A stretch of DNA of 64,000 bases. Source: Carboxylicivirga linearis (lineage in GTDB: Bacteria; Bacteroidota; Bacteroidia; Bacteroidales; Marinilabiliaceae). Numbering within the stretch: the first letter of the stretch is position 1; every line of letters starts with the position of its first letter. A model generated the notes under the pieces. That model saw only the letters and a list, made by a program, of their open reading frames with translations. It was not told the DNA's origin and did no database searches. Position numbers and translations under genes: made by a program. The stretch lies in assembly GCF_018271995.1 (NCBI RefSeq), contig NZ_JAGUCO010000005.1:1-64000 (forward strand). The letters are read 5' to 3'. This document shows positions 10,670-56,152 of this stretch, piece by piece.

Positions 10670-12613
10670 ATGACAAAAGTACTTAAGTTACTCATTAGTC
10701 TGTTACATTCAATTAAAACAACCCTGATGGGAAGTGTTAATCGTGTATCAACAAGATCAATAGTATTGGTAGGGTTGATTATATTGAGCTCATTAGCTAA
10801 CGGAGCCAATCACGATACTGAATATTTGCTAGCAAATTACACCAAAACAGAAGTGGAAATTCCCATGCGCGATGGAGTAAAGCTGTTTGCTGTTATTTAT
10901 GCTCCCAAAGACCAATCGGTTAGCTATCCTATTTTGTATAATAGAACACCGTACAATGTGGCCCCTTATGGTGATGAATATGGTTTTAACTTTCGAAGAG
11001 GCTTATTTCCGGAGTTTCTGCGCGAAGGATTTATATTCGTATTTCAGGATGTACGTGGTCGTTTTATGTCAGAAGGCAAATACCAGCACATGACTCCTTT
11101 TGTAGCCAATAAAACAAAAAGTACCGATGTAGATGAAAGTTCCGATGCTTATGATACGGTTGACTGGCTGATTAAGAATGTTGATAATAACAATGGACGA
11201 GTGGGAATGTGGGGTATTTCCTATCCGGGCTATTATACCTCATGCGCAGCTATTGATGCTCATCCTGCACTAAAATGTGTTTCTCCACAGGCTCCTATTT
11301 CCGATTGGTTTTATGATGATCCGCATCATCATGGTGCCTTTTTTCTATTAAATATGGGATTTTTTGGAGCTATGGATGTTCCAAGGAAACACCCTTACCA
11401 AGATTGGATTAAACCATACGACTGGAAAAATCCTGATTCTTATGATTTCTTTATGAAGTTGGGGCCTTTATCCAACGTAAAAAACAACTATTTTGGTGAT
11501 AGTATTACTTTCTGGAATAAACTGGCAGAGCACCCTAATTACGACCAGTTCTGGCAAGACAGGAATATTCTTCCTCACCTGAAAAATATTAAACCGGCTG
11601 TTCTGGTTGTGGGTGGTTGGTATGATGCAGAAGATTTGTATGGAACTTTCAATACCTATGAAGCCATTCAAAAGAATTCACCCAAAGGTGATAAGCGAAT
11701 AGTGATTGGCCCCTGGATTCATGGGGGATGGGCTCGTACCGATGGTGATTATCTGGGCAATGTATCGTTTGATCAGAAGACATCACTTTATTACCGTCAC
11801 CAAATTGAATTGCCTTTTTTTAGATATTATCTGAAGGATCAGGGGACTATGGATCTGGCTCAGGCAACCCTGTTTATGACCGGCAAAAACGAATGGAGAA
11901 AGTTTGAGCAATGGCCACCCAAAGAACTGGAAGAAACAAAATTGTATTTGCACGACCAGAGTAAGCTGTCATTTGATGCTTTGTCTGGAGCTGAACAACC
12001 TTTTGATGAATTTGTAAGTGATCCGTCTAAACCCGTTCCTTACACCGAAGAGACAGCATTTGACATGACCAAAGAATATATGACCGACGATCAGCGTTTT
12101 GCAGGCCGTCGTCCTGATGTGTTGGTCTTCGAAACCGAAGTGTTGGAAGATGAAGTGATATTGGCCGGTCCGCTAATGGCTCATTTAAAGGTTTCAACCA
12201 CCGGAACGGATGCTGATTGGGTTGTTAAATTAATTGATGTTTATCCATCGGATGCTGAAGATAATCCACATACCCGCGAAGGTTTAAAAATGGCAGGTTA
12301 TCAGCAAATGGTGCGGAGCGAAGTCATACGCGGCCGTTTCCGTAATAGCTATGAATTTCCCGAACCTTTTACACCTGGTAAAGTGGAAGATGTCAATCTT
12401 GAACTTCAGGATGTATTGCACTGCTTTAAAAAAGGACATAAGATTATGATTCAAATACAAAGCACCTGGTTTCCCTTGGTTGACCGTAATCCTCAAAAAT
12501 ATGTGGATAATATTTTTGATGCCGGGCCTGAAGACTTTATTAAAGCTACACATAGGGTTTATCATTCAAAGAAAAATCAATCTTTTATAGAAGTTAGTCT
12601 GTTGAAGGAATAG
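10670..12613 (+). CDS. CocE/NonD family hydrolase (X-Pro dipeptidyl-peptidase superfamily, S15-like)
   Basis: 647 residues. A hydrophobic segment near residues 30-45 probably acts as a signal anchor or late signal peptide. The alpha/beta-hydrolase core has the nucleophile elbow WGISYPG with Ser184, an acid at Asp319 (GGWYDAED) and a base at His351 (GPWIHGGW), the triad order of the CocE/S15 family. The C-terminal ~200 residues (EVILAGPLMAHLKVSTTGTD ...) are the jelly-roll domain of the family. Members hydrolyse esters, amides or X-Pro peptides; the substrate here is unknown. A periplasmic location is likely. The usual family length is 550-650, so it is full length. It is separate from katG by 235 bp. 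Confidence 0.85.
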   Translation: MTKVLKLLISLLHSIKTTLMGSVNRVSTRSIVLVGLIILSSLANGANHDTEYLLANYTKTEVEIPMRDGVKLFAVIYAPKDQSVSYPILYNRTPYNVAPYGDEYGFNFRRGLFPEFLREGFIFVFQDVRGRFMSEGKYQHMTPFVANKTKSTDVDESSDAYDTVDWLIKNVDNNNGRVGMWGISYPGYYTSCAAIDAHPALKCVSPQAPISDWFYDDPHHHGAFFLLNMGFFGAMDVPRKHPYQDWIKPYDWKNPDSYDFFMKLGPLSNVKNNYFGDSITFWNKLAEHPNYDQFWQDRNILPHLKNIKPAVLVVGGWYDAEDLYGTFNTYEAIQKNSPKGDKRIVIGPWIHGGWARTDGDYLGNVSFDQKTSLYYRHQIELPFFRYYLKDQGTMDLAQATLFMTGKNEWRKFEQWPPKELEETKLYLHDQSKLSFDALSGAEQPFDEFVSDPSKPVPYTEETAFDMTKEYMTDDQRFAGRRPDVLVFETEVLEDEVILAGPLMAHLKVSTTGTDADWVVKLIDVYPSDAEDNPHTREGLKMAGYQQMVRSEVIRGRFRNSYEFPEPFTPGKVEDVNLELQDVLHCFKKGHKIMIQIQSTWFPLVDRNPQKYVDNIFDAGPEDFIKATHRVYHSKKNQSFIEVSLLKE

Positions 12614-12750
12614 CAATGTTGAAAAGTTATAGGTTAGGCAGAATAATGACTTCGTATGATTAATATTTGCATTATTTATATATTATTTTGGATCTGATTT
12701 TAATAATGTCGTAAATAAAATACAGTGTTAATCCTTGTTTCAGGATATCA

Positions 12751-12758
12751 TAAATTTG
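12751..12758 (+). promoter_or_regulatory. Candidate -7 element upstream of katG
   Basis: TAAATTTG matches the Bacteroidota -7 consensus TAnnTTTG exactly. It lies about 90 bp before the katG start. No clear -33 TTTG is seen at the right spacing. Confidence 0.35.
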
Positions 12759-12836
12759 AGTGATGTAAGTATCGATATTTTCTATTTTCTAAATGTATCG
12801 TCGTTCCGTATCTTTATTTAAAAGATTGAATATTAA

Positions 12837-15023
<2,187 letters not shown>

Positions 15024-40667: not shown

Positions 40668-41921
40668 TTAATTAAGATTGAATAGACGTTTTAAATGGCG
40701 ATCGTATATATTTTCAAATACACAATTACCAATAATGTCAGAATGTTTCTTTAACAAAGGTAGGTACACATCTGATTGCTGCGCTGCAAGTTTATAAGCA
40801 ACATGTACTAACTGACGCATATTAGAATTGTACTGCGGATGATCTGGAATATGGCGAATGGCATTGGCCATGTCATCAGCGCTCCAGTCGGCAATGGTAT
40901 CTTTATCGGGTAATTGATCTGTTTTAATATCTATTACATCGGCATAAGGAGCGCATAATTCGTCAATCTTATCCAGTGCTTTTCCATACAAATCCTTTAT
41001 GAATTGAAGTGCTTCACCACCTGCCATTGATAAGCCAATTACTTCCTCAAGCCACGTTGTACCAGCTGTTTTAACATGTATTCCTTTATCCAGCTTTTTA
41101 ATAATATTTCCAATATGGGGATAGATAGAGAATTTATCAGATCCGGAGTGAACGCTTAATTTAATTTCTGCAGGTAGCCCGAATTCAGCAACACATTGAT
41201 CCAGTACCATCAAATCCTGTTCAAATTCCTTGGCAAAATCCAATGGATTACCCGTATAATCTACACCTTTATTAAAACGACCCGAGAACTTTGGTGCAAT
41301 GGTTTGAACCGGTATGTTTTCGGCTGCTAACATCTTTAAGATGAAAAATAGCTCTATTGGAGTTTGAGGTTTGGGTACTTCGTCCATTGAAACCTCAGTT
41401 ATAAAGTTTCCTTTACCTTTGTCGTTTTCAATGATTTTATATATCTCGCCAGCCTTTTTTGCAGCAAATAAATACTGTCTGGCTATTTTTTTTATGTCCT
41501 CACGAGAAACCTCAAAGGGTTCGGCAATACCATTAATGGTTACTTTGCCAATATAAATAGAACAGCTGTCAACAAATGCTTCCAGATCCGATTCATCAGA
41601 TGGCTCGCCTATATATCCGGCTACATCAATGGTGAAAAAATCGGCTGATGGTAAAAAGCGATCTACGGTTTCCAGGTTAATATGGTCGGCATCTACAAAA
41701 TATAGATTATCCCAACCTTGAGCTTTAACACTGGCATCAGCCTCTACTCTTACGTCATCAGGATGCGTACCAATGGTAATATGTTCGCGGTTAGATTTAT
41801 TCCAAACCGGGCAAATGTCGTAACCCAGTTCATGTACCTTCATAACAGCTTTTAACTGTGCTTCGCCTTGATGGCCAAAACGGTCGCCAACGCCAAATGA
41901 GTACTTTGATAATTTTTTCAT
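40668..41921 (-). CDS. uxaE: Tagaturonate epimerase UxaE
   Basis: 417 residues from the ATG at 41921 (MKKLSKYSFGVGDRFGHQGE); a GTG eight codons upstream is possible but less likely. The N-terminal FGVGDRFGHQGEAQL, central PKFSGRFNKGVDYTGN and SVHSGSDKFSIYPHIG segments are those of the UxaE family, a metal-dependent C3-epimerase interconverting tagaturonate and fructuronate. It links the galacturonate branch (UxaB/UxaA) with the glucuronate branch (the SDR-type UxuB at 48635-49474). It lies 100 bp downstream of a LacI gene on the same strand and is the last gene of the minus-strand series. Cytoplasmic. The family is assigned by motif recall. Confidence 0.88.
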   Translation of the reverse strand: MKKLSKYSFGVGDRFGHQGEAQLKAVMKVHELGYDICPVWNKSNREHITIGTHPDDVRVEADASVKAQGWDNLYFVDADHINLETVDRFLPSADFFTIDVAGYIGEPSDESDLEAFVDSCSIYIGKVTINGIAEPFEVSREDIKKIARQYLFAAKKAGEIYKIIENDKGKGNFITEVSMDEVPKPQTPIELFFILKMLAAENIPVQTIAPKFSGRFNKGVDYTGNPLDFAKEFEQDLMVLDQCVAEFGLPAEIKLSVHSGSDKFSIYPHIGNIIKKLDKGIHVKTAGTTWLEEVIGLSMAGGEALQFIKDLYGKALDKIDELCAPYADVIDIKTDQLPDKDTIADWSADDMANAIRHIPDHPQYNSNMRQLVHVAYKLAAQQSDVYLPLLKKHSDIIGNCVFENIYDRHLKRLFNLN

Positions 41922-42021
41922 AACTGTTGATTTATTTAGTTTCACTAATATGCCTGTGGCATTAGGTTTTATTTTAGTTTGTTATAACCTTGTCTGGGGG
42001 TTATATCAATTACCCTTTTCC

Positions 42022-43074
42022 CTAAAATAATCCCATATTTTCAGCATTGATAATATCAATGGGCTGAAATTCCTTTTTTTCAGGAATTGTGTTAAATGTC
42101 AGATAATCAAACAGCTTTTTAAAAGCTTTTTCAGCTTGTTCAACCGGACGTTGACCAATTAAAAATTGAATCACTCGTCGTTGCAGGTAGGTTACATTTT
42201 TACCAAATAATTCATATCCTACCAAAAATATTTCTCTTAAACCTTTTTGATTAAGGTATTCGGCAACAGCATAGGTTCTGGAACTTGAAACCAAAATGGC
42301 ACCTATATTGTTTGATTGGTTAAAAATTGGATCCAGTACATTACTAACAACATCAGCTTGTGCCGTAGGTATTTCAATACTTATTTTCTTTCCTATATTT
42401 ATTCCAGCATCCATAAAATAGCTTAAGAAACCTTGGTTTCGACTATTCAAGTGTTCGGTATTTTCTAAATTTTTAGCCGTGTTAACAATTAAAATGTCTT
42501 TATCTCGACTAATGCCCATATCAATCAGACTTGCCGCTACTCTGCCGCTCTGAAAGGCATCTTCTCCTAAAAAGGCGAGACAATTGGTATTATTGATAAA
42601 TGTATCAATAAATACGTATGGAATATTTGCATCATCGAGCTGATGGCAGAAGGTGTCTGATTCTTTTTTCATGATGGGGGCAAAAATCACACCTCTGGGA
42701 TTCCATTCCCTAATTTCGTTTGTTTTTGCTTCAAAATCAGATGTGTTATACATCTCGTAACGATAAAAGCGTGTTTGTACAGTATAGGGTTGAACTGCTT
42801 CAACGGCTTTTTGTATTCCTACCGGGTGTTGATCCCAAAAAAGGTTATCACCATAACTTTGTGGTATTAGAATGGCAATCCGATAGGCAGTGGGTGATTT
42901 AAGAGCTTGTGCAGCAATATTGGGTTGATAATTCAGTTCTCTGGCAATTTTTAAGATGCGTTGTTTAGTGTCTGCTTTAACTTCGCCTCTGTTGTGTAAA
43001 ACCCTGTCAACCGTACCAATGGAAACTCCCGCTTTTTCTGCTATATCCTTAATTCGGATTCTTCTGCCGTTCAT
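42022..43074 (-). CDS. LacI family transcriptional regulator of hexuronate genes
   Basis: 350 residues. The N-terminal helix-turn-helix IRIKDIAEKAGVSIGTVDRV is followed by the hinge helix NIAAQALKSP and a periplasmic-binding-protein-like ligand domain (AILIPQSYGDNLFWDQHPVG ... GYELFGKNVTYLQRR). The ligand domain is of the ribose/psicose-binding type rather than the type in the LacI protein at 53125, so the two probably sense different molecules. It sits between the hexuronate carrier gene (70 bp upstream, with a hairpin between) and uxaE (100 bp downstream). It likely represses the uxaE and/or carrier operon in response to a uronate intermediate; the effector is unknown. Confidence 0.88.
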   Translation of the reverse strand: MNGRRIRIKDIAEKAGVSIGTVDRVLHNRGEVKADTKQRILKIARELNYQPNIAAQALKSPTAYRIAILIPQSYGDNLFWDQHPVGIQKAVEAVQPYTVQTRFYRYEMYNTSDFEAKTNEIREWNPRGVIFAPIMKKESDTFCHQLDDANIPYVFIDTFINNTNCLAFLGEDAFQSGRVAASLIDMGISRDKDILIVNTAKNLENTEHLNSRNQGFLSYFMDAGINIGKKISIEIPTAQADVVSNVLDPIFNQSNNIGAILVSSSRTYAVAEYLNQKGLREIFLVGYELFGKNVTYLQRRVIQFLIGQRPVEQAEKAFKKLFDYLTFNTIPEKKEFQPIDIINAENMGLF

Positions 43075-43090
43075 AGATCTTTTATGGGAA

Positions 43091-43113
43091 ACCGGGAGCT
43101 ATAAGCTCCCGGT
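43091..43113 (-). terminator. Strong intercistronic hairpin between carrier and LacI genes
   Basis: A perfect 10-bp stem accgggagct/agctcccggt with a 3-base loop. On the minus strand it is followed only by ttcccataaaa, so it may be a weak terminator or an mRNA-stabilising stem rather than a full stop. Confidence 0.5.
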
Positions 43114-43144: not shown

Positions 43145-44668
43145 TTATTCTACAACAATTGGTTTGTATTGTGGTACTAAGCTCTTCATGATTACCCAAC
43201 CTATTAAATAAGCTACAGCACAAATTGAGAAGATAATGAAATAACCAGAAGGTTTTCCTTCAAAACCCAAGAAATTCATTGGTTCTCTTACAAATTGAGC
43301 ACCTTTCTCTAATAGTTCAGTAGTCATAGGAACCTCAATATTATCTACCAATGTAGATCCGGCTGAGTAGTCAAATAAAAGACCTGATCCTTTATTGATG
43401 AATGCTGAACCAATACCTCCAGCCATACCACCAATTCCTGTGATAGTTGCAATAGATGACTTTGGGAACATATCACCAATAGTTGAGAAGATATTAGCTG
43501 ACCATGCCTGGTGAGCCGCTCCTGCAATACCAATTATAATGATAGGGAACCAGTACGAATAAGCACCCAATGGCTGAGCTAATAAAGCCAACAGTGGGAA
43601 GAAAGCAAAAATCAACATTGATTTCATACGTCCTGCATAAGGATTCATACCTTTCTTATCAACAAAGTAGGTTGGTAACCATCCTCCAATAATAGATAGC
43701 AATGTAATTGCATATAATACAAATAATAAAATTTGTGCCATTCCGGTATCCGATGTTAATCCGTAAACATCACTGATATAGGCAGGAGTCCAGAACAAAT
43801 AGAACCACCAAACACCGTCGGTCATGAATTTACCAACAACGAATGCCCAGGTTTGCTTGTATTTGAAGCTGTCCCAGAAACCAATTTTACCTTCTGCTTT
43901 TTCTGTTTTTACATCAGAGCTTTTTACTTCAGCTTCATCCTGGTTAATGTATTCTAATTCTGCAGAATTTACCTTTGGGTGTTCATGAGGTTTTTTATAC
44001 ATAAAAACCCAGAATCCCATCCAGATGAATCCTAAAGCTCCAATTAGAATAAATGCCATTTCCCATCCGTAATAGTGAGCAATAACAGGAATTACTAATG
44101 GTGATGCTAAAGCTCCAACTGTTGCACCTGCGTTAAAGATACTGGTTGCATAAGCACGGTCTTTCTTTGGAAAGTATTCAGCGGTTGTTTTAATGGCAGC
44201 AGGGAAGTTACCTGCCTCACCAATTGCTAAAACAAAGCGTGCAAAAATGAACAAGGTTACACTAACGCTAACAATGAGTCCAACATCTTTTACTTTCTCA
44301 ATTGCATGAAGGGCGCCTTCAAATCCAACAAACCATTCTCCTGCTACGATACCTGATGTAGCAATTCCGCAGAATGCATGTAGTATAGCACCTACAGACC
44401 ATACTCCAATAGCCCAAAGAAATCCTTTCTTGGTATCCATCCAGTCAACGAATCGACCAGCTACTAATAGTCCAATAGCATAAAATATGGAAAACAAGGC
44501 TGTAATATTACCATAGTCCGAGTCGGTCCAATGAAATTCAGGAGCAATAAAATCCTTCCAGGTTAAAGACAGTACCTGCCTGTCCAGGTAATTAATTGTT
44601 GTTGCAAAGAACAGAAGTGAACAGATTGCCCATCTGTAGTTCGTCATTTTGTTTTGGTTACTAGCCAT
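43145..44668 (-). CDS. MFS hexuronate-type transporter (ExuT-like)
   Basis: 507-residue inner-membrane protein with about 12 spans, of the anion:cation symporter branch of the major facilitator superfamily. Typical marks are YRWAICSLLFFATTINYLDR at the N-terminus, GEAGNFPAAIKTTAEYFPKK after span 4, and GIAGAAHQAWSANIFSTIGD in the second half. Family members import hexuronates, hexonates or related sugar acids with protons. A long extra loop near residues 95-130 is seen in Bacteroidota members. It is 17 bp after gnd in a tight unit pfkB-larA-gnd-carrier, so it may import gluconate or mannonate as easily as galacturonate; the sequence alone does not decide. Confidence 0.88.
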   Translation of the reverse strand: MASNQNKMTNYRWAICSLLFFATTINYLDRQVLSLTWKDFIAPEFHWTDSDYGNITALFSIFYAIGLLVAGRFVDWMDTKKGFLWAIGVWSVGAILHAFCGIATSGIVAGEWFVGFEGALHAIEKVKDVGLIVSVSVTLFIFARFVLAIGEAGNFPAAIKTTAEYFPKKDRAYATSIFNAGATVGALASPLVIPVIAHYYGWEMAFILIGALGFIWMGFWVFMYKKPHEHPKVNSAELEYINQDEAEVKSSDVKTEKAEGKIGFWDSFKYKQTWAFVVGKFMTDGVWWFYLFWTPAYISDVYGLTSDTGMAQILLFVLYAITLLSIIGGWLPTYFVDKKGMNPYAGRMKSMLIFAFFPLLALLAQPLGAYSYWFPIIIIGIAGAAHQAWSANIFSTIGDMFPKSSIATITGIGGMAGGIGSAFINKGSGLLFDYSAGSTLVDNIEVPMTTELLEKGAQFVREPMNFLGFEGKPSGYFIIFSICAVAYLIGWVIMKSLVPQYKPIVVE

Positions 44669-44685: not shown

Positions 44686-46140
44686 TTATACATTATAAGT
44701 CGTGGATGCGGTATCTCCTCCTCGTCCTGTCCAGTTGGTGTGGAAAAATTCCCCACGAGGTTTGTCAATACGTTCATATGTATGAGCTCCGAAATAATCG
44801 CGTTGAGCCTGTAGTAAATTGGCAGGCAAACGATCACAACGATATCCATCAAAATAATTTAAGGCAGTTGTCATTGCAGGAGCTGGAATTCCATTGGTTA
44901 AAGCTGCGGCAGCCACTCTTCTCCATCCGGCCTGAGCTTTTTCAACTTTATCTTTAAAATAAGGATCAAGTAATAAGTTGGCTAAACTATTATTGGCATC
45001 AAAAGCTTCTTTAATTTTACCTAAGAAAGCAGAGCGAATAATACAGCCGCCTCTCCACATTAAAGCTATTCCACCATAATTTAAATCCCAATTGTATTCC
45101 TTGGCAGCTTCTCGCATAAGAGCATAACCTTGTGCATACGATACAATTTTTGAAGCAAACAATGCATCGCGTAAATCATCAATTAATTGCTTTTTATCGC
45201 CAGTGAAAGTAGGGGTAGGGCCGCTTAATATTTTAGAGGCTTCAACACGTTCTTCTTTAACTGCCGATAGACAACGAGAGAAAACAGCTTCGCCAATTAG
45301 TGTTAAAGGAATACCTAAATCAAGAGCTGCTACTCCAGTCCATTTTCCGGTTCCTTTTTGTCCCGCTGTGTCTAAAATTTTATCAACCAGTGGTTCTCCG
45401 TCTTCATCTTTAAAGGCCAGGATGTCACGGGTAATTTCTATTAGGTAACTATCTAAGTCACCTGTATTCCATTCCTTGAATACTTCATGCATTTCGTCAG
45501 CCGACATGCCTAGCAGATCTTTCATAATCTGGTACGCTTCGGTAATCAATTGCATATCACCATATTCAATACCATTGTGTACCATTTTAACAAAATGACC
45601 GGCTCCGTCTTCACCAACCCAATCGCAGCAAGGCGATCCGTCTTCTACTTTGGCGGCAATTGATTGGAAAATTGGTTTTACCAATGGCCATGCTTCTTTT
45701 GATCCTCCCGGCATAATAGATGGACCTAATAAGGCTCCTTCTTCACCGCCGGAAACACCAGTTCCGATGTATAAAATTCCTTTTTCCTGTAAATATTTTG
45801 TACGTCGGTTAGTATCCGGGAAATGCGTATTACCACCATCAATTAAAACATCTCCTTTTTCAAGATAAGGAAGGATGGATTCAATGGTAGCATCAACTGC
45901 TGGTCCGGCTTTAATCATCAACATTATTTTGCGCGGACGTTCTAATGAAGCTACAAATTCTTCGAGATTATGTGCGCCTCTTATATTTTTATCTTTACCA
46001 CGATTGGCTAAGAATTTATCTACTTTTTCGGTTGAGCGGTTAAAAACACTAACCGTAAAACCTTTGCTTTCCATATTAAGTACAAGGTTTTCGCCCATTA
46101 CAGCCAAACCAACTAATCCTATGTCTGATAATGCTTTCAT
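44686..46140 (-). CDS. gnd: 6-phosphogluconate dehydrogenase, decarboxylating
   Basis: 484 residues, full length. The N-terminal dinucleotide site is [20 protein letters not shown], the substrate-binding block is [18 protein letters not shown], the catalytic lysine region is [19 protein letters not shown], and the C-terminus is [13 protein letters not shown]. It converts 6-phosphogluconate to ribulose 5-phosphate and CO2 with NAD(P)+. The enzyme belongs to the oxidative pentose phosphate route, yet here it lies inside a hexuronate cluster, 21 bp after a LarA-family gene and 17 bp before a sugar-acid carrier gene. No glucose-6-phosphate dehydrogenase or lactonase gene is present nearby, so its substrate here should come from another source. 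Confidence 0.96.
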
Positions 46141-46161
46141 ACTTCTTGAAGGTTATTTTTA

Positions 46162-47436
46162 TTAATCTTTAAATCGATCGGGATGTGCCCAAAGACCCAT
46201 TGCCGGATTGGAAATATAATAAATTTCTTCGCCATCGGGCAGTTTATTGTATCCATCAACTAATTTGTCAGGGTTATACCGATCCATCATCTCATTCAAC
46301 GGAGCATACCTGAAGTTCACAGATTCAATTTCGTCTTTGGTTAAGTGGCCCGGACAATAAGTGATGGAGAAACGTCCTTCACTACTTCCATGCATCAGGT
46401 GAGCAGCAGCACCCAGATTGTTTTTTAGATCATCGTTTTCTTCAATGGCTTTAAGGGTTGCAGGTGTACCACAATAGCCATATTTTCGAATTAACTGATC
46501 GATGGTTGCATCTTCACCAAACTCTTTTAAAGCTGGAGCTAACACTATTAACTCAGCATTATCGGCCAGGGCCATTCGAGTTCGATAAATACTTTTATTT
46601 CCCAACCAGGTACTTTTAAACTCTGAAGGATCGAGATAAACAACTACTTTTTTTAGTGGTTTTTCAACCATCTTAAAATTAACTTTTAATGATAAAGCAG
46701 CTGCTTGTTCAAAAACTTCAACATCGTCGCCAACAAAAAGTCCGCGAGTTACTGATTGACCACTTTCGTCTTTTCCAATAACAGTAAGAACATACAAAAT
46801 GGGCAAATGGTTTGTAAAATTATCGGATGCATAATTTAAAAGCTGACGCACAGGTGACTGTGTCCGGCCCATTATACGTTCCATACCATAAGCAGCGCCT
46901 ACAAAATGACTTTTATTGATGCCCTCTGATCCGCCGGTACCCACAAAAATGTTTTTGTTGTAGTTGGCCATTCCAATTACTTCATGCGGTACTACCTGGC
47001 CAATGGACAAAATCAGATCGTGACCTCCGTTGAGAAGCATTTTGTTTACCTGAGCAGGCCAGGTGTAATTCACCAATCCTTCAGTTGCTTCAGAAACATA
47101 ATCTGCAGGAATTTCGCCAACGGTAACCACATCATTTCGCCAGTCGTGAACTCTGAAAAGTGAAGAAGGTACACCTTTAAACATATGGTCAATCTCTTCA
47201 GCGGTCATTGCAGCATGTGTTCCTAATGCAGGAAGGACATCTGTGAGTCGTTCTTTGAAATACTCGTACGTAAAAGTGGTTAATTCACCGGCTTTTGAAT
47301 GATAACGCGTATAATCGGGCGGTATAGCTAAAACTTTTTCTTTGGTTCCAATTTTATCAAGAGCTTCAAATAATCCCGATTGTAAATCAGCATCACTTAA
47401 AACCGTAGTTTCCGATCCTTTTTGATAATAAATCAT
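46162..47436 (-). CDS. LarA-family nickel-pincer 2-hydroxyacid racemase/epimerase
   Basis: 424 residues of the DUF2088/LarA superfamily. His151, Lys161 and His177 (in VVPHEVIGMANYNKN and INKSHFVG) have exactly the spacing of LarA His174, Lys184 and His200, which hold the nickel pincer cofactor; His97 in FRVHDWRND is the likely second catalytic base. The position equal to LarA Arg75, which binds the lactate carboxylate, is Ala in GTHAAMT, so lactate is unlikely. Reported superfamily members include a D-gluconate 2-epimerase, which fits the gnd gene next door. The cofactor needs LarB, LarC and LarE, which are not in this window. It lies 21 bp after the pfkB gene and 21 bp before gnd. Confidence 0.85.
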   Translation of the reverse strand: MIYYQKGSETTVLSDADLQSGLFEALDKIGTKEKVLAIPPDYTRYHSKAGELTTFTYEYFKERLTDVLPALGTHAAMTAEEIDHMFKGVPSSLFRVHDWRNDVVTVGEIPADYVSEATEGLVNYTWPAQVNKMLLNGGHDLILSIGQVVPHEVIGMANYNKNIFVGTGGSEGINKSHFVGAAYGMERIMGRTQSPVRQLLNYASDNFTNHLPILYVLTVIGKDESGQSVTRGLFVGDDVEVFEQAAALSLKVNFKMVEKPLKKVVVYLDPSEFKSTWLGNKSIYRTRMALADNAELIVLAPALKEFGEDATIDQLIRKYGYCGTPATLKAIEENDDLKNNLGAAAHLMHGSSEGRFSITYCPGHLTKDEIESVNFRYAPLNEMMDRYNPDKLVDGYNKLPDGEEIYYISNPAMGLWAHPDRFKD

Positions 47437-47457
47437 TGCTGTTGTTTTACTTGATAA

Positions 47458-48537
47458 TTATCGTTGAACACGCGCATTACCTTCCCAAATACTCCAAACC
47501 ATTGCCTCGTCGGCAGGTTGAGCATAGTCAGTAAGAAATGTGGTTGCCAAAGCTCCGGATGCCCATCCAAATTGCATGGCTTTTTCTGATGGCATTTCTT
47601 TAAGAACACCATAGAGCAGTCCTCCAACAAATCCGTCGCCGCCTCCAATGCGATCTAATACGTTGATTTGGCGAGGTTCAATTACATGCCAGTTTGTATC
47701 TTCAAGCATAATAGCACCCCATAGGTGTTGGTTGGTATTAATTACTTCGCGTAATGTAGTTGCAAAAATTGATGCTCCCGGATAAGTTGCCTTTACACGG
47801 GTAATCATCTCTTTAAAACTATTTATTTTTGATTGCAGTCCTTCACCACCGGCTTCAGGACCTTCAATGCCCAGGCAAAGTTGGAAGTCTTCTTCATTTC
47901 CAACCAATATGTCAGAAACAGATGCAATCTCTGAGAAGATCTCTGCTAATTCTTTTTCGCGCCCCTTCCAGAAGGTAGCTCTGTAATTCAAGTCAAACGC
48001 TATTCGCGTTCCGTGTTTCTTTGCAGCTCTGGCTAGCTCTAGACAAAACTGACTGGTTTCTGGTGAAAGAGCAGCTATTAATCCTGAAAGATGAACAATC
48101 TGAACGCCTTCTTCACCAAATAGTTTCTCCAGATCAAAATCTTTGATGCTTAATGTGCGACCTACCTCACCGGCTCGATCGTTTTGAACACGGGGACCTC
48201 TTGATCCATATCCACTATCAGCAATATTAAACTGATGACGATATCCCCATGGACCGCCCTGTGGTACTTCCGGACCTTCGAAGTCCATATGACGGGCTTT
48301 AAGATTACTTTTGATGAACTCAGCAACCGGACTAGCCTGAACAAATTTGGTTAATACCTTAACGGGTAATCCCAGATATGAAGAAATGCTGGCCACATTG
48401 GTTTCGGCACTGGTTGCATACATGGTAAACTGATCGCTGCTATGTACTGGCTGACCATTGGGCGGAGTAATACGTACACCCATGCTGGTGGGGACTACTA
48501 AAGCGTATTTGCAATTGTTTTTTAATTGAATACTCAT
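47458..48537 (-). CDS. PfkB family sugar-acid kinase
   Basis: 359 residues of the ribokinase/PfkB family. The C-terminal signature DRIGGGDGFVGGLLYG carries the catalytic aspartate and anion hole, and AFDLNYRATFWKG and LVGNEEDFQL match the 2-keto-3-deoxygluconate-kinase-like subgroup. The N-terminus (SMGVRITPPNGQ) is divergent, and the protein shares only the core with the KdgK at 50372-51409. A second KDG kinase seems redundant. Its position directly before larA and gnd suggests that it phosphorylates gluconate or another hexonate, but this is inference. The cognate promoter may lie in the 97-bp gap after the SDR gene. Confidence 0.85.
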   Translation of the reverse strand: MSIQLKNNCKYALVVPTSMGVRITPPNGQPVHSSDQFTMYATSAETNVASISSYLGLPVKVLTKFVQASPVAEFIKSNLKARHMDFEGPEVPQGGPWGYRHQFNIADSGYGSRGPRVQNDRAGEVGRTLSIKDFDLEKLFGEEGVQIVHLSGLIAALSPETSQFCLELARAAKKHGTRIAFDLNYRATFWKGREKELAEIFSEIASVSDILVGNEEDFQLCLGIEGPEAGGEGLQSKINSFKEMITRVKATYPGASIFATTLREVINTNQHLWGAIMLEDTNWHVIEPRQINVLDRIGGGDGFVGGLLYGVLKEMPSEKAMQFGWASGALATTFLTDYAQPADEAMVWSIWEGNARVQR

Positions 48538-48634
48538 TGTTTTTTGATCTAAGGGTTTACTATTGTCCGGGAAGGTAGCAGCAAAAGGATTTAACCTAAT
48601 GCTGCTATGGGTTCATGTTTAAATATGCATTTAT

Positions 48635-49474
48635 TTATACGCCACTAAAGGCGCTAAAACCTCCATCAACAGGTACTACTACTCCGGTAACGAATTTTGA
48701 CCAGTCGGAAACCAGATATAATAAAGTTCCCGCTAGTTCGTCGGCATCGCCATAACGTCCCATTGGAGTGTTGTTAATGATTTTCTGACCACGTGGAGTT
48801 GGTGCTTCTGTTTTTTCATCCACCAATAAAAAACGGTTTTGATTGGTTAAGAAGAAACCAGGTGCAATTGCATTCACTCTAATGCCTGTTTGAGCAAAGT
48901 GAACCGCCATCCATTGTGTGAAATTGTTAATAGCCGCTTTAGCTGCCGAATAAGCAGGTATTTTAGTAAGCGGGGTATAACTATTCATGGATGAGATATT
49001 AATTACCACCCCACTTTTTTTATCCAACATATCTTTTGTAAAAATCAAAGAGGGTAGGAGCGTACCTTTGAAATTCAGGTCGAAAACATTATCGAATCCT
49101 TCCATCTGCAAACCATAAAAGGTTTTTTCCAAATCAGAAATATTCTCATCTGTAATCATTTCAGCCTGGGTTGTTGCAGAGGCTGCATTACCTCCAGCTC
49201 CATTAATCAGAAAGTCTATCGTACCTAATTCCTGATGTATGATATCAAGAGCTTTTTCAAGAGACTCTTTGTTTAATACATCAGCCGATATACCAACTGA
49301 TTTAGCTCCAAATGTACTTTCAATATCATTAGCAACTTTATCAGCTGACTCCTGATTACGATTTAAAATGGCCGTTTTAACACCTTTTGATGCTAAACCT
49401 CTGGCCATGGCAGAACAGAGTATTCCTGATCCACCGGTAATTACCGCTACTTTGTTTTTTACATTTAATTCCAT
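48635..49474 (-). CDS. uxuB: SDR-family D-mannonate oxidoreductase (fructuronate reductase, UxuB type)
   Basis: 279-residue classical short-chain dehydrogenase: cofactor motif TGGSGILCSAMA, NGAGGNAASATTQ after strand 4, catalytic Ser in INISSMNSY and Tyr/Lys in PAYSAAKAAI. The insert between the NGAGGN motif and the next helix, and the overall length, match the Bacillus YjmF/UxuB type that reduces fructuronate to D-mannonate, rather than the polyol-dehydrogenase type of UxuB. It starts 3 bp after the KDPG aldolase stop. No mannonate dehydratase (UxuA) gene is present in the window, leaving the fate of mannonate open. A gluconate 5-dehydrogenase-like role is the main alternative. Confidence 0.82.
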   Translation of the reverse strand: MELNVKNKVAVITGGSGILCSAMARGLASKGVKTAILNRNQESADKVANDIESTFGAKSVGISADVLNKESLEKALDIIHQELGTIDFLINGAGGNAASATTQAEMITDENISDLEKTFYGLQMEGFDNVFDLNFKGTLLPSLIFTKDMLDKKSGVVINISSMNSYTPLTKIPAYSAAKAAINNFTQWMAVHFAQTGIRVNAIAPGFFLTNQNRFLLVDEKTEAPTPRGQKIINNTPMGRYGDADELAGTLLYLVSDWSKFVTGVVVPVDGGFSAFSGV

Positions 49475-49477
49475 GGA

Positions 49478-50149
49478 TTACTTCTTTACTTCTTGGATAT
49501 TAGCTATTAATTCTTTTGCCTTTTCAGCAAGTGCAGAATAGTTTTTAGCTTCCATAATATCCTTAGGGAAAAGATTAGATCCCATACCAACGCAAGTTAC
49601 ACCTGCATCAAACCATTTTTTCAGGTTTTCTTTTTCAGTGGTTACACCTCCGGTTGGCATAATGTCGGTCCAAGGCATTGGAGCTTTAACAGCCTTAACA
49701 AATGAAGGACCTCCGATTTCAGACGCTGGAAATACTTTTACTACTTCTGCACCCAACTCCTGGGCTTTATTTATTTCTGAGATTGTACCACATCCTGGAG
49801 ACCACATTATTTTTCTGCGGTTACAGATGCGAGCCATATTTTCATTCAATAATGGAGCAACAATAAAATTGGCACCAGCCTGAATATACAAAGCAGTAGT
49901 TGCTTCTTCAACAATTGACCCTGCACCTAGTATCATGCCAGGTAATTCTTTTAAAGCATACTTGTTTAATTCGCTGAATAACTCATGAGCAAAATCGCCA
50001 CGATTAACAAATTCAAATACACGAATGCCGCCTTCGTAACAGGCTTTCAATACATTTTTACAAACATCAATGTCAGCATTGAAAAATACAGGAACAACAC
50101 CTGTTTCTTTCATTGCTGTAAATACTTCTATTCTTGAATATTTTGCCAT
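49478..50149 (-). CDS. eda: KDPG/KHG aldolase
   Basis: 223 residues from the ATG at 50149 (MAKYSRIEVFTAMKETGVVPVF); an upstream ATG at 50203 would add 18 residues that run through an inverted repeat and is unlikely. Class I aldolase of the KDPG family: catalytic Glu in FEFVNRG, phosphate-binding PTGGVTTE and Schiff-base Lys in VVKVFPASEIGGP. It splits 2-keto-3-deoxy-6-phosphogluconate into pyruvate and glyceraldehyde 3-phosphate, the last step shared by the galacturonate and unsaturated-uronate branches. It precedes the uxuB-type SDR gene by 3 bp and is separated from kdgK by 222 bp that contain a large inverted repeat and a 21-bp-spaced direct repeat. Confidence 0.93.
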   Translation of the reverse strand: MAKYSRIEVFTAMKETGVVPVFFNADIDVCKNVLKACYEGGIRVFEFVNRGDFAHELFSELNKYALKELPGMILGAGSIVEEATTALYIQAGANFIVAPLLNENMARICNRRKIMWSPGCGTISEINKAQELGAEVVKVFPASEIGGPSFVKAVKAPMPWTDIMPTGGVTTEKENLKKWFDAGVTCVGMGSNLFPKDIMEAKNYSALAEKAKELIANIQEVKK

Positions 50150-50164
50150 TTTTCTGTGAAATAA

Positions 50165-50227
50165 AACAAGCCGGAGAAAGTATATGTTAACATGCTCCTC
50201 CAAGAAATGACTTAGCTCCGGCTTGTT
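50165..50227 (-). repeat. 12-bp inverted repeat with long loop between kdgK and eda
   Basis: Perfect arms aacaagccggag (50165-50176) and ctccggcttgtt (50216-50227) enclose 39 bases. On the minus strand the second arm is followed by ttatttc and then the eda start 16 bp later. It could be a terminator for uxaC-kdgK with an unusually long loop, or a leader structure of the eda message. Confidence 0.6.
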
Positions 50228-50287
50228 ATTATAAATTTATTGTTTCAGTCCGAAGTCCTATGTATCCATCCGCCATAAATGTCAAAC

Positions 50288-50336
50288 TAAAGTTATAAAT
50301 GAAAGTCTTGATACTTATGTCTTACATCTTGATACT
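50288..50336 (-). promoter_or_regulatory. Candidate eda promoter with 21-bp-spaced direct repeats
   Basis: The 10-mer tcttgatact occurs at 50306-50315 and again at 50327-50336, a period of exactly 21 bp. On the minus strand a TAACTTTA element (50295-50288, 7 of 8 matches to TAnnTTTG) lies 10 bp beyond the proximal copy. The geometry is that of AraC-type activator half-sites next to a promoter. Confidence 0.45.
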
Positions 50337-50371
50337 AAGAAAATACTTCTACCTTAAAACTTCTGCTTTAT

Positions 50372-51409
50372 TTATCGTGATACCCTACCAGAGGCGTCGC
50401 CACCCATTAATTTTTCAACTTCTTCAACAGTTACCTGGTTGAAATCACCGTGAATGGTGTGTTTCAAACAAGATGCAGCAGTTGCGAAATTAATGGCGCT
50501 TTGATCATCCCCTTCGTAAGCAATTAAACCATAGATTAATCCACCCATAAATGAATCACCACCGCCTACACGGTCAACAATGTGAGTGATTTGGTAAGTT
50601 GGTGCCTGGAAAAGGTTTTTACCATCGTAAATTACACCCGACCAGCTGTTGTGGTTGGCACTAACTGAACCACGAAGTGTAGTAATCACTTTGTTAACGC
50701 GTGGATATTGTTTCATGATTTGTTGAGATACACTTCTGTATGCCTCAGCTTCTACATGTCCACCTGTTACATCAACACCTTCTGGTTTAATGCCTAATAC
50801 CATCTCGGCATCTTCTTCGTTACCCAAAACAATGTCGCAACCAGCTACTAATTCTGGCATCACTTCAGCCGCTGTTTTACCATATTTCCAAAGATTCTTG
50901 CGATAGTTTAAGTCACAAGTAACGGTAACGCCCATTTTGTTGGCAGTTTGAATAGCTTCTAAACAAACATCGGCAGCACCTTGCGAAATAGCAGGAGTAA
51001 TTCCAGTCCAGTGGAAAAAGTCTGCATCCTTTAAGATCTCTTCCCAATTAAACATTCCTTTGGTTACCTCAGAAATGGCTGAGTTAGCACGGTCGTATAC
51101 AACTTTACTGGCACGAGCTACAGCTCCAGTTTCCAGGAAATAAATTCCTAAACGATCTCCACCTTGAAGTATTTTATCGGTTTTAACACCATACTTCTGA
51201 AGCTCCATTTGACAAGCTCTGCCAATATCATTTTTAGGAAGACGTGTAACAAAAGAAGAATCAATGCCATAGTTGGCCAATGAAACGGCTACATTTGCTT
51301 CGCCACCACCGTAGGTAGCTTCAAATGATGTAGCTTGATTAAAACGCTCGTAACGTGGTGTGGCCAAGCGCAACATGATTTCTCCGAAAGAGACTACTTT
51401 CTTTGACAT
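50372..51409 (-). CDS. kdgK: 2-Keto-3-deoxygluconate kinase
   Basis: 345 residues of the PfkB family. It begins VVSFGEIMLRLATPRYERF with the substrate-binding segment YGGGEANVAVSLANYG, and ends with the catalytic signature DRVGGGDSFMGGLIYG. Both match bacterial KDG kinases, which phosphorylate 2-keto-3-deoxygluconate to KDPG for the aldolase encoded just downstream. It starts 4 bp after the uxaC stop, so the two are co-transcribed. Full length for the family and cytoplasmic. The second, more divergent PfkB protein at 47458-48537 shares only the core motifs. Confidence 0.93.
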   Translation of the reverse strand: MSKKVVSFGEIMLRLATPRYERFNQATSFEATYGGGEANVAVSLANYGIDSSFVTRLPKNDIGRACQMELQKYGVKTDKILQGGDRLGIYFLETGAVARASKVVYDRANSAISEVTKGMFNWEEILKDADFFHWTGITPAISQGAADVCLEAIQTANKMGVTVTCDLNYRKNLWKYGKTAAEVMPELVAGCDIVLGNEEDAEMVLGIKPEGVDVTGGHVEAEAYRSVSQQIMKQYPRVNKVITTLRGSVSANHNSWSGVIYDGKNLFQAPTYQITHIVDRVGGGDSFMGGLIYGLIAYEGDDQSAINFATAASCLKHTIHGDFNQVTVEEVEKLMGGDASGRVSR

Positions 51410-51413: not shown

Positions 51414-52814
51414 TTAAAAATTAAAATATGATTTTGCGTTTTTGTAAGAAACCCCTTCTACCATTTGTTTTAGAATGGTTTCGTCATTTGGAATTAATCC
51501 TTTTTCTACTTCTTTACCAAGGTGGTTACACACAATACGGCGGAAATATTCGTGACGAGGATAGGATAAGAAACTACGGCTATCAGTTACCATTCCAACA
51601 AAACGGCTTAATAAACCTAATGCAGAAAGATCCTGAAGGTGTTTTTCCATACCTGTTTTTTGATCAAGGAACCACCAGGCTGCTCCGTATTGTACTTTGC
51701 CCACTGTTGATCCGTCGTTGAAGTTACCACACATGGTTACCATCATCTCATTATCTGCCGGATTCAGGTTATAAAGAATAGTTTTAGATAACTGATCAGT
51801 TGTATCTAATAAATTCAGGAACTGAGACATTTTTAATGCATTCTGAGAGTTGTTAATTGAATCCCAACCTGTATCAGCACCCATTATATTGAATTTGCGA
51901 GTATTATTATTACGTAGTGCACCCACATGGAATTGTTGTGTCCATCCACGTTTGTGGTTCAATTTGGCTAACTCGGCCATCACACAGCATCTGTATTTTT
52001 CAGTTTCTTCTTCGTCAATTGTATTTCCTGCCATCAACTTTAAGAAGATTTTATTTACTTCATCTTCGGTGTATGGTGCAAAAAAGAATCGATCTGGTCC
52101 ACTGTCTGAAGCACGGCCTCCTAATTCATGAAAATAAGCATGACGACGATCTAAAGCTTCTATTAATTCAGTTAATGATGAAATAGCAATATCAGCTACC
52201 TCGCCTAATTTTTCGATATAAGCTTTAAATTGTACAGGGTCTTCGGTTTTAATTACATTATCAGCTCTGTAAGTAGGAACTACCTTAATGTGATATCCTT
52301 CGTCTTTTAGTTTTTTATGAAATTGAAGGTCGTCAGCAGGATCATCTGTAGTACCCACTACTTCAACATTCATCATCTCTAATAGCTTTCTTGTACTATA
52401 ATCCGGAGATTGAATCATTTCCTTAGTTGATTCAAATATTTTCTCAGCAGTAGCCGGAGAAAGCAGCTCTGTTACATTAAAGTGGCGTGCTAATTCAAGG
52501 TGAGTCCAATGATAAAGAGGATTACCAGCAGTAAAAGGAACTGTTTCGGCATACTTCATAAATTTTTCCTTGTCTGAAGCTTTACCGTTACAATAATGTT
52601 CGTCAATTCCGTTAATTCTCATGGCACGCCATTTATAATGGTCGCCTTCTAACCAAATTTGCCCCAAATTGTCGAATTGTCTGTCTTCAGCAATAAACTG
52701 AGGATTTAAGTGACAATGGAAGTCAATGATTGGTTGATTCTCTGAATATTCGTGGTATAATTTCTTTGCTGTTTCTGTTTCCAGAATGAAATCTTTGTGT
52801 ATAAATGATTGCAT
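51414..52814 (-). CDS. uxaC: Uronate isomerase UxaC
   Basis: 466 residues, full length for this amidohydrolase-like metalloenzyme. It has IIDFHCHLNPQFIAEDR near the N-terminus (metal-binding His-x-His), then VVGTTDDPADDLQFH, and FHVGALRNNNTRKF with MGADTGWDSINN in the second half. It converts galacturonate to tagaturonate and glucuronate to fructuronate, the entry step of both branches. It is the first gene of the minus-strand operon with kdgK and is divergent from the LacI gene at 53125. The 310-bp intergenic region carries LacI-type palindromes, so it is probably controlled by that LacI protein. Confidence 0.97.
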   Translation of the reverse strand: MQSFIHKDFILETETAKKLYHEYSENQPIIDFHCHLNPQFIAEDRQFDNLGQIWLEGDHYKWRAMRINGIDEHYCNGKASDKEKFMKYAETVPFTAGNPLYHWTHLELARHFNVTELLSPATAEKIFESTKEMIQSPDYSTRKLLEMMNVEVVGTTDDPADDLQFHKKLKDEGYHIKVVPTYRADNVIKTEDPVQFKAYIEKLGEVADIAISSLTELIEALDRRHAYFHELGGRASDSGPDRFFFAPYTEDEVNKIFLKLMAGNTIDEEETEKYRCCVMAELAKLNHKRGWTQQFHVGALRNNNTRKFNIMGADTGWDSINNSQNALKMSQFLNLLDTTDQLSKTILYNLNPADNEMMVTMCGNFNDGSTVGKVQYGAAWWFLDQKTGMEKHLQDLSALGLLSRFVGMVTDSRSFLSYPRHEYFRRIVCNHLGKEVEKGLIPNDETILKQMVEGVSYKNAKSYFNF

Positions 52815-54151: not shown

Positions 54152-54988
54152 ATGAGTTTAGAAGTTCGCTACGCAGTGCATCCAGAAGATGCAAAAAGTT
54201 ATGGAACGGATCGTATCCGTAAAGAATTTTTGATTGAAAAAGTAATGGTTCCGGGTGAAATTAATCTGGTTTACTCAATGTACGATCGTTACATTGTGGG
54301 TGGAGTGGTTCCAACGGATAAACCTATTGAGTTAGGAACTTATGATGAGTTGAAAGCTGAATTTTTCTTGAATCGTCGTGAGATGGGAATCATCAATGTT
54401 GGAGGTGCAGGTACTGTAACTGCCGACGGAACAGAGTATAAGTTAGATTATAAAGAGGCTTTATACTTAGGAAGTGGTATTAAAGAAGTAACTTTTGCTT
54501 CGGCTGATGCTTCAAAGCCAGCTCACTTCTATGTTAACTCTGCACCAGCACATAAATCATTGCCAAGTAAGCATGTTACTTTAAAAGATGCGAATGTTTT
54601 ACAATTAGGTTCGTTACAGACTTCAAACGAACGTCAGATTAACCAGTTGTTGGTAAAAGAAGTGGTTGAAACATGTCAATTGCAAATGGGAATGACTGAG
54701 CTGAAACCAGGTAGTGTTTGGAATACCATGCCAGCGCATACTCACAGTCGTCGTATGGAGGCTTATTTCTATTTTGAGGTTCCTGAAAATCAAGCTGTAT
54801 GTCACTTTATGGGACAACCAGATGAAACACGTCATATCTGGATGCAGAATGAGCAAGCTGTTTTATCACCATCATGGAGTATTCATAGTGCAGCAGGTAC
54901 ATCAAACTATATCTTTATTTGGGGTATGGCTGGCGAAAACTTGGATTATGGTGATATGGATATTCGTCAACCAAACGAATTAAGATAA
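54152..54988 (+). CDS. kduI: 5-Keto-4-deoxyuronate isomerase KduI
   Basis: 278 residues, the length of the family. Conserved segments include [20 protein letters not shown] near the start, [13 protein letters not shown] in the first cupin half, and the zinc-site region [19 protein letters not shown] with its histidines and glutamate in the second. It isomerises 5-keto-4-deoxyuronate (DKI) to 2,5-diketo-3-deoxygluconate in the breakdown of unsaturated galacturonate. It is followed 9 bp later by the KdgF-like gene and then kduD, in pathway order. Cytoplasmic. No anomalies. Confidence 0.97.
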
Positions 54989-55342: not shown

Positions 55343-56152
55343 TTGAATAAAATGATACAAGAATTATTTGACTTATCAGGAAAAGTAGCCCTTGTTACTG
55401 GTGGTACCCATGGTATCGGTATGGCTATTGGTAAAGCACTTGGAAAAGCAGGTGCTAAAATTTGTGTGAATGATCTTTCGGCAGAAAAACTGGAAGAGTG
55501 TAAAGCTGAATATGCTAAAGATGGCATTGATGTATATACTTTGGTTTTCAATGTAACTAAAGAAGAAGAGGTTGATAAAGGAATCTCTCAAATCGAAAAT
55601 GAAGTAGGTCCGGTTGATATTTTGGTAAACAATGCCGGTATCATCAAGCGTATTCCTATTTTAGACATGCCAATTGCTGATTTTCAACAAGTAATTGATG
55701 TTGACTTGGTGGCGCCTTTAATTGTTGCTAAACGCGTTGCTCCAGGTATGATCGAAAGAAGAGCAGGTAAAATCATCAATATGTGCTCAATGATGAGTGT
55801 TTATGGACGTAACTCTGTTTCTGCATATGCTGCTGCTAAAGGTGGTTTGAAATTGTTAACTGCTAATATGTGTTGTGAGTGGGCTAAGCATGGTTTGCAA
55901 ATCAATGGAATTGGTCCTGGTTATATCGCTACTTCGCAAACAGCACCAATCCGCGAAAATGGTCACCCATTTAACGACTTAGTAATGACACGTACACCTG
56001 CCGCTCGCTGGGGTGAGCCTGAAGATGTAGGTAATGCTGCATTGTTCCTGGCTTCAAAGGCAAGTGAATTTGTAAATGGTCATGTGCTTTATGTTGATGG
56101 TGGTATCTTGGCCAACTTCGGATATGTTAAAGGTGAAAATGATCTTGACTAA
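55343..56152 (+). CDS. kduD: 2-Keto-3-deoxygluconate 5-dehydrogenase-type SDR (KduD)
   Basis: 269 residues, classical short-chain dehydrogenase: TGGTHGIGMAIG cofactor motif, NNAGIIKRIPILD, catalytic Ser in INMCSMMSVYG and Tyr/Lys in SAYAAAKGG. The sequence FVNGHVLYVDGGILANFG at the end is typical. KduD reduces 2,5-diketo-3-deoxygluconate to KDG, feeding KdgK. It lies 6 bp after kdgF and its stop is followed one base later by the start of the DUF4861 gene. Its substrate is a 3-deoxy sugar acid, unlike the UxuB-type SDR at 48635-49474. Confidence 0.94.
   Translation: MNKMIQELFDLSGKVALVTGGTHGIGMAIGKALGKAGAKICVNDLSAEKLEECKAEYAKDGIDVYTLVFNVTKEEEVDKGISQIENEVGPVDILVNNAGIIKRIPILDMPIADFQQVIDVDLVAPLIVAKRVAPGMIERRAGKIINMCSMMSVYGRNSVSAYAAAKGGLKLLTANMCCEWAKHGLQINGIGPGYIATSQTAPIRENGHPFNDLVMTRTPAARWGEPEDVGNAALFLASKASEFVNGHVLYVDGGILANFGYVKGENDLD

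Follow-up and report, generated by a model that had tools for sequence, protein, structure and literature searches.

In Thermotoga maritima, the genes gnd-uxaRED-gntEK form one cluster and kdgAK-uxuBA lie separately (PMC3750489). For this bacterium a scheme leading from mannonate to gluconate has been proposed, and its enzyme GntE2 was shown to epimerize mannonate (PMC7583248, PMC3750489). Here we examine a related gene set in Carboxylicivirga linearis, located in the first 64,000 nucleotides of contig NZ_JAGUCO010000005.1 (assembly GCF_018271995.1), a stretch hereafter called the window. In it, the genes for a fructuronate reductase of the short-chain dehydrogenase/reductase (SDR) type, a second PfkB-family kinase, a homologue of the nickel enzyme LarA and 6-phosphogluconate dehydrogenase (Gnd) stand together in a unit that is probably a branch of hexuronate catabolism within a pectin locus, leading from mannonate through gluconate and 6-phosphogluconate to ribulose 5-phosphate.

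The gene unit and the proposed route

The unit, completed by a carrier of the major facilitator superfamily (MFS), consists of the following open reading frames (ORFs), whose coordinates are positions in the window:

48635-49474, minus strand: SDR-type fructuronate reductase (UxuB); NF006132 D-mannonate oxidoreductase, 400 bits, cut-off 281
47458-48537, minus strand: second PfkB kinase, predicted gluconate (or mannonate) 6-kinase; Pfam PfkB
46162-47436, minus strand: LarA homologue of group 18, predicted nickel-pincer D-mannonate/D-gluconate 2-epimerase; NF052594, 671.8 bits
44686-46140, minus strand: 6-phosphogluconate dehydrogenase Gnd; TIGR00873, 791 bits, cut-off 426.7
43145-44668, minus strand: MFS sugar-acid carrier; Pfam MFS_1, best NCBIfam match TIGR00893 D-galactonate transporter, 170.7 bits, under the cut-off of 395

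The SDR and kinase genes are 97 bp apart. The clustering of the five genes, with gaps of 21, 21 and 17 bp from the kinase onwards, had been described in the original prediction and was confirmed, in coordinates as well as in families. The SDR was also considered as a gluconate 5-dehydrogenase or as KduD, and scored under the cut-offs of both models.

In the route that we propose, galacturonate or glucuronate would be converted to fructuronate via UxaC and, if needed, UxaE, and the SDR would reduce fructuronate to D-mannonate. The LarA homologue, with its nickel-pincer nucleotide (NPN), would then invert C2 of mannonate to give D-gluconate, the second PfkB protein would phosphorylate gluconate at C6, and Gnd would oxidize and decarboxylate 6-phosphogluconate to ribulose 5-phosphate. 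Hexuronate would thus be turned into CO2 and pentose phosphate with little net expenditure of reducing power, because Gnd would return the NAD(P)H spent by the SDR, a balance derived from the known reactions. The branch would run beside the routes through 2-keto-3-deoxygluconate (KDG), namely UxaB/UxaA, KduI and the uxuA gene located elsewhere, and not in their place. The gene families, active-site residues, gene order, recurrence, single gnd and zwf-less cases are observed, whereas the substrates, the order of the epimerase and kinase steps, the direction, the redox role and the regulation of this branch are inferred. The product of UxuB and the substrate of Gnd differ by an inversion at C2 and a phosphorylation at C6, which are the activities predicted for the two genes in between.

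The LarA homologue

The match of the LarA protein to NF052594 ('nickel-dependent putative hexonate epimerase' in NCBIfam, cut-off 500) places it in group 18 of the LarA homologues (LarAH18), as the name of the model, NPN_18, indicates. It is 92% identical to its counterpart in Marinilabiliaceae bacterium A049 and 82% identical to that of a Carboxylicivirga. The nearest solved structure, both by sequence (E = 3.9e-34) and by a Foldseek search with the AlphaFold model (E = 2.6e-28), was T. maritima 4nar, the protein named GntE2 in PMC7583248, and all 18 fold matches at E ≤ 0.001 were LarA-family chains. The model had a mean predicted local distance difference test score of 86.6, with values under 50 at residues 158-168.

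The equivalents of the NPN-binding residues R75, K184 and H200 are R44, K161 and H177, and those of the catalytic residues D72, H108, H174 and K298 are D41, H74, H151 and K281. The hexonate-epimerase signature is present as well, with E152 and V153 following the catalytic His and W277 in helix alpha-11. All these positions, placed by motif and alignment rather than by superposition, are invariant in 102 group-18 rows (14 + 8 + 80, three genomes occurring twice). An E-V/S loop and a Trp in alpha-11 have been linked with the hexonate epimerases of groups 18-20 (PMC7583248), and the name given to group 18 rests on such signature residues, not on a test, the function of the group being put forward as a hypothesis in the same paper. 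Another report (PMC11770544) adds a further GntE; its main text contains neither 'group 18' nor 'hexonate'. Judged by its sequence, the window protein is predicted to be a hexonate epimerase with an intact active site.

The second PfkB kinase

For the second kinase, the nearest solved structure was the KDG kinase 2afb, both by sequence (E = 6.4e-32) and by fold (E = 1.2e-27). Three pocket positions, which we take to be KDG-binding, are G, Y and Y in 27 of 27 KdgK rows. In the family of the window kinase (56 rows, those of three duplicate loci having been dropped) they are S, N and N in 54, 55 and 55 rows, respectively, the rest being gaps, and the catalytic Asp and two Arg residues are retained. 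The numbers that we presumed for the KDG-contact residues did not fit the 1v19 numbering and were not used.

The protein thus lacks the G/Y/Y pocket of a KDG kinase. Neither is it a member of a known gluconokinase family, of the FGGY or the GntK type; being a PfkB protein related to KDG kinases, it could at most work like a gluconokinase. Since a kinase with this changed pocket coexists with a KdgK-like protein in the same gene run, we take the pair to favor the proposed route, in which gluconate would be the substrate of the second enzyme. A second PfkB family, mostly 34-37% identical, occupies the kinase slot in other loci. Elsewhere the slot holds a protein of the pyrophosphate (PPi)-phosphofructokinase type, possibly a PPi-dependent sugar-acid kinase; the copy in locus L041 (11119-12396, upstream of larA) matched NF010675 with 365 bits.

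Recurrence of the gene set

Of 395 genomes from the phylum, 22 had a match over the NF052594 cut-off. A scan of genome contigs yielded at least 565 confirmed relatives, of which 80 named loci were kept; with 19 others these make up 99 loci, whose neighboring genes were labeled by their best blastp matches to a few reference proteins. In the 68 loci that extend 4 kb or more to each side of larA (after removal of three duplicates), the genes no more than 6 kb from larA included Gnd in 60 cases, an SDR UxuB in 59, a PfkB kinase in 58 (42 + 16), uxuA in nine and a PPi-phosphofructokinase in two. The one-strand order SDR-(uxuA)-kinase-LarA-Gnd was found in 50 of the 99 loci, and 15 more had the set otherwise ordered or arranged; this count ignores flank lengths, so that cut loci figure as misses, and many of the remaining loci are cut short. 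Loci with this order include Bacteroidota and Ignavibacteriota, those of Calditrichota and Spirochaetota being arranged otherwise. Because Gnd lies so close to larA in nearly all phylum genomes with LarAH18 (20 of 22, see below), and the SDR, the kinase and Gnd recur near larA in the 68 loci, the co-occurrence of the window genes is not due to chance.

Two further genes were observed in the neighborhoods. A transketolase-type gene, which we count in favor of the proposed route, follows gnd in L033, L034, L037 and L167 (family scan on the L033 copy), and a hydrolase of about 296 residues, of the haloacid dehalogenase type, occurs in seven loci (e.g., L041:10141-11028; L136 is the same genome as L041) and adjoins larA in several of them.

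Gnd and the source of 6-phosphogluconate

In the 22 phylum genomes with LarAH18, gnd lies less than 1.5 kb from larA in 20 and 8.3 kb away in one, the two genes being on separate contigs in the last. A full-length gnd was present in 33 of 33 genomes searched, as a single copy in 31, and the window gnd is the sole full-length copy in C. linearis (one match at E ≤ 1e-60). As for zwf, it was found in 26 of the 33 LarAH18 genomes. The seven in which it was not found, where assembly gaps may conceal it (G124 consists of one contig and G333 of about 480), all have gnd, within 1.2 kb of larA in six and 8.3 kb away in the seventh. If zwf is truly absent, 6-phosphogluconate needs another source, and the proposed route would provide one.

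A family of related genes near larA or gnd spans 25 loci, and its L138 copy (12475-13599) is 4-phosphoerythronate dehydrogenase PdxB (NF001309). As 4-phosphoerythronate is an inhibitor of Gnd, PdxB near larA could serve metabolite repair and not vitamin B6 synthesis.

Genes for the nickel-pincer cofactor

LarC (PF01969) scored over the cut-off in 24 of the 395 phylum genomes, that is, in 8 of 22 with LarAH18 versus 16 of 373 others, which we count in favor of the proposed route. LarB, LarC and LarE were all over their cut-offs in 8 of the 22 (in C. linearis with a short LarC); the other 14 had none of the three over the cut-off, and what matched LarB and LarE more weakly in these genomes seems to be related proteins with other functions. 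In C. linearis, LarB scored 180.8 bits, just over the cut-off of 175, and LarE 267.7 bits, against a cut-off of 150 that a second LarE-like gene, beside larB, did not reach (121.4 bits); by eye, both LarE-type genes show the CxxC...C pattern.

Among the named genomes, 50 of the 80 were analyzed for LarC (E ≤ 0.01) and LarB (E ≤ 1e-20). The two genes went together, 28 genomes having both and 22 having neither, although LarB was under the model cut-off in three of the 28; 12 of these 28 genomes, mostly Marinilabiliaceae, have only a short LarC of the window type. Altogether, the 72 LarAH18 genomes comprise 23 with a full LarC, 13 with a short one and 36 without larB and larC (NPN-less), larE having been examined in the 22 phylum genomes, including 14 of the 36. 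The short-LarC genomes, i.e., C. linearis and 12 named relatives, keep LarB. A search for the C-terminal LarC domain detected it in both control genomes but in none of the 13 short-LarC genomes and none of 20 NPN-less ones. We rejected a separate gene for this domain, the search of 35 genomes having returned, beyond the controls, two noise-level matches (E = 0.035 and 0.098).

NPN-less isolates include Maribellus sediminis, Draconibacterium sediminis, D. aestuarii, D. mangrovi and Tangfeifania diversioriginum; Maribellus maritimus has larB and larC, whereas M. sediminis has neither. The 14 NPN-less genomes of the phylum sample are 98-100% complete and three are single contigs (G188, G124 and G302), although assembly gaps may hide NPN genes. 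The NPN-less label requires 10 changes on a quick LarA tree, and at least eight going by the starred branches. The pN/pS ratio (nonsynonymous to synonymous differences) of LarA, calculated with synonymous sites near saturation, ranged from 0.06 to 0.15 across six NPN-less pairs, from 0.07 to 0.11 across four pairs with a short LarC and from 0.08 to 0.11 across three pairs with full NPN genes. In the pairs sampled from each group, LarA is thus under ordinary purifying selection.

Among loci flanked by 2 kb or more on each side, Gnd is close to larA in 34 of 36 NPN-less, 12 of 13 short and 16 of 21 full genomes, and UxuB in 32, 13 and 15 of them, respectively. Two genes were considered as possible replacements for NPN synthesis in the NPN-less operons: PdxB and a Gfo/Idh/MocA-type oxidoreductase are each near larA in 15 of 36 NPN-less loci versus 3 of 21 full and none of 13 short ones, an excess that may follow lineage; the oxidoreductase occurs in 27 loci overall (e.g., L175:11318-12346).

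According to PMC11796402, larBCE occur without larA in about 15% of genomes. The converse, larA without larBCE, is not mentioned in the available text of PMC11796402, PMC7583248, PMC11770544, PMC9283937, PMC12611868 and PMC8305020, and a genome survey of 2014 may state it. Tentatively, and with somewhat less than even confidence, we suggest that in many Bacteroidota and Ignavibacteriota the group-18 epimerase works without LarB, LarC and LarE, the cofactor or a precursor being taken up like a vitamin from neighboring bacteria or obtained by some other synthesis. In the Marinilabiliaceae, C. linearis included, the N-terminal-only LarC might by the same token represent an intermediate state or insert nickel without the C-terminal domain.

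Evidence against the route and alternative explanations

Several observations weigh against the proposed route, and some of them concern UxuA. The original prediction regarded the unit as a bypass existing because UxuA is missing. No uxuA ORF was identified in the window, in agreement with that claim, but the genome does contain one uxuA (G000:C55:26258-27439; TIGR00695, 476 bits, cut-off 199.55), which adjoins another SDR-type uxuB as well as a regulator gene of the NUDIX type and is near genes that, by eye, resemble a xylan locus. KDG can therefore be reached in C. linearis through this uxuA, through UxaB-UxaA, encoded in the window itself, and through KduI. The absence of uxuA as the reason for the route was thus rejected for this genome, and as a rule it is unsupported: of the 80 named loci, 11 have a uxuA close to larA, whereas the 19 others have none there, and PF03786, by which its presence was judged (enolase-superfamily mannonate dehydratases being outside the search), occurs in 7 of 22 LarAH18 genomes versus 99 of 373 others (p = 0.62). 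Judged by PF03786, mannonate use could depend on the LarA route in 15 of the 22, but there is no general substitution, and LarAH18 is not enriched where uxuA is missing. What survives is that a mannonate-gluconate route can account for the four genes, as the enzyme set and order fit, the active site of LarA is intact and gnd stays with larA even where zwf was not found; as a stand-in for a missing UxuA it fails.

Other adverse points regard the individual enzymes. No group-18 enzyme with a measured activity was found in the available text of the cited literature, and the second PfkB kinase scored over no NCBIfam cut-off. The kinase slot is taken by the PPi-phosphofructokinase-type protein in L041, L043, L140 and L176, and no recognized kinase lies within 6 kb of larA in 8 of 68 loci. 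In C. linearis, zwf and (by eye) pgl lie together on another contig without gnd, so that the single gnd can also serve the ordinary oxidative pentose phosphate pathway. Finally, the presence of larB, larC and larE, on which the original prediction relied, was verified for larB and larE, while LarC (L063:7975-8772) has only 265 residues, corresponding to the N-terminal part, and its C-terminal domain was not found in the genome. Active NPN is therefore not assured even here, and the 36 NPN-less genomes extend the same difficulty.

The kinase might act before the epimerase, PfkB phosphorylating mannonate and LarA epimerizing 6-phosphomannonate to 6-phosphogluconate, with the same end point. Such activities were described in Lactobacillus suebicus cell extract (PMC6978723), and the window order SDR-kinase-LarA-Gnd would match the order of reactions. 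However, six loci (L144 Proteiniphilum, L165 Petrimonas, L169, L180, L190 and L194) are ordered SDR-kinase-Gnd-LarA, making gene order a weak guide, and the tested GntE enzymes of the LarA family use unphosphorylated mannonate (PMC7583248, PMC11770544); we consider phosphorylation first to be rather unlikely. Less probable again, in our opinion, is that LarA inverts another hexonate or a uronate-derived 2-hydroxy acid, the kinase and Gnd sharing only its regulation and gluconate coming from elsewhere, e.g., from a gluconate 5-dehydrogenase. A different native substrate has indeed been suggested for group 19 (PMC7583248), and the SDR at 55343-56152 scores over the gluconate 5-dehydrogenase cut-off. 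Yet the latter, 8 kb away from larA and adjacent to KduI, may itself be KduD, whereas the SDR adjoining the kinase scores as the mannonate type, and exactly a C2 inversion and a phosphorylation separate its product from the substrate of Gnd.

In genomes without NPN genes, LarA could also be inactive or otherwise employed, a passenger of a conserved operon. The idea draws on the lack of both larB and larC in half of the LarAH18 genomes (36 of 72), with larE not over the cut-off in the 14 of those examined. We nevertheless judge it very unlikely, as every checked active-site residue of LarA is kept and the pN/pS values of the NPN-less pairs are close to those of the full-NPN pairs. Epimerization of mannonate followed by phosphorylation of gluconate remains our preferred sequence of steps.

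Surroundings of the unit

Upstream of the unit, the gene run continues into the genes for Eda, a KDG kinase and UxaC; on the downstream side it goes on to those for LacI and UxaE. The remaining features of interest are:

51414-52814, minus strand: UxaC uronate isomerase, first gene of the run; NF002794, 612.9 bits, and Pfam UxaC
50372-51409, minus strand: KDG kinase (KdgK-like PfkB); phmmer against T. maritima KDG kinase 2afb, E = 6.2e-102, with the G/Y/Y pocket of the KdgK rows
49478-50203, minus strand: 2-keto-3-deoxy-6-phosphogluconate/2-keto-4-hydroxyglutarate aldolase Eda; NF005499, 360.1 bits
43091-43113, no strand assigned (listed on plus): GC-rich hairpin between the MFS gene and lacI; consensus scan only
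42022-43074, minus strand: LacI-type regulator; Pfam LacI and Peripla_BP_4
40668-41945, minus strand: UxaE tagaturonate epimerase; Pfam PF16257, 188.1 bits
34885-36321, plus strand: UxaB tagaturonate reductase, competing altronate route; NF002969, 624.1 bits
36325-37812, plus strand: UxaA-type altronate/galactarate dehydratase, competing altronate route; Pfam GD_AH_second and GD_AH_C
54152-54988, plus strand: KduI, unsaturated-uronate branch to KDG; NF002091, 439.7 bits
55343-56152: SDR over the cut-off of NF005488 gluconate 5-dehydrogenase; 436.9 bits, cut-off 369

Eda probably starts near 50149, because homology begins only at residue 19. The sole NCBIfam match of the UxaA-type protein was galactarate dehydratase, under the cut-off. 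The hairpin at 43091-43113 is a possible transcript end. The window also encodes a pectinesterase and GH28, GH88-type and PL9-like proteins and is a pectin locus; it further contains xylose isomerase and a xylulokinase-like protein, the latter under its cut-off.

Between kdgK and eda there are 222 bp (50150-50371) with an inverted repeat, CCGGAG...CTCCGG. This gap includes, at 50307-50323, the string CTTGATACTTATGTCTT, which has a copy between uxuB and uxuA of the other operon and may be a dispersed intergenic sequence. We also considered, and rejected, a shared regulation of both uxuB operons: two exact copies of AACGTACATNTNACGTT lie next to the regulator and uxuB of the other operon (L032), and the window has none at up to three mismatches. 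Rfam at its gathering threshold gave no match in the window.

Comparison with known systems

If the proposed route holds, pectin hexuronates feed the pentose phosphate pathway via a nickel enzyme in many polysaccharide degraders beyond Thermotoga, and the operon offers a direct way to assign both LarAH group 18 and a PfkB sugar-acid kinase. Conserved NPN enzymes set against missing NPN genes also raise a sharp and testable question: do bacteria share a nickel organometallic cofactor with one another? To a specialist, the lack of the cofactor genes would be the surprising part.

By score and residues, the window protein is a member of LarAH group 18 as defined by NF052594, for which the available text of PMC7583248 describes neither the operon nor the link with zwf and gnd nor the missing cofactor genes. 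The hybrid isomerase-phosphoketolase pathway of L. suebicus (PMC6978723) resembles the proposed route in leading from galacturonate via mannonate to 6-phosphogluconate and Gnd; it differs in that mannonate is phosphorylated first, a phosphoketolase acts downstream and, in the published account, the epimerase gene was not identified. Thermotoga is like the window in that a pectin locus groups gnd and uxaE with genes for a LarA-family epimerase and a kinase, uxuA being kept in a separate operon. Its LarA homologue, however, belongs to group 20, whereas the window protein is of group 18 by the name of its NCBIfam model, the Thermotoga kinase is a gntK product and not a KDG-kinase-related PfkB protein, and the window type is found in Bacteroidota and neighboring phyla. 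The scheme is accordingly not new, being a variant of the Thermotoga gnd-uxaE-gntE-gntK scheme that here recurs widely.

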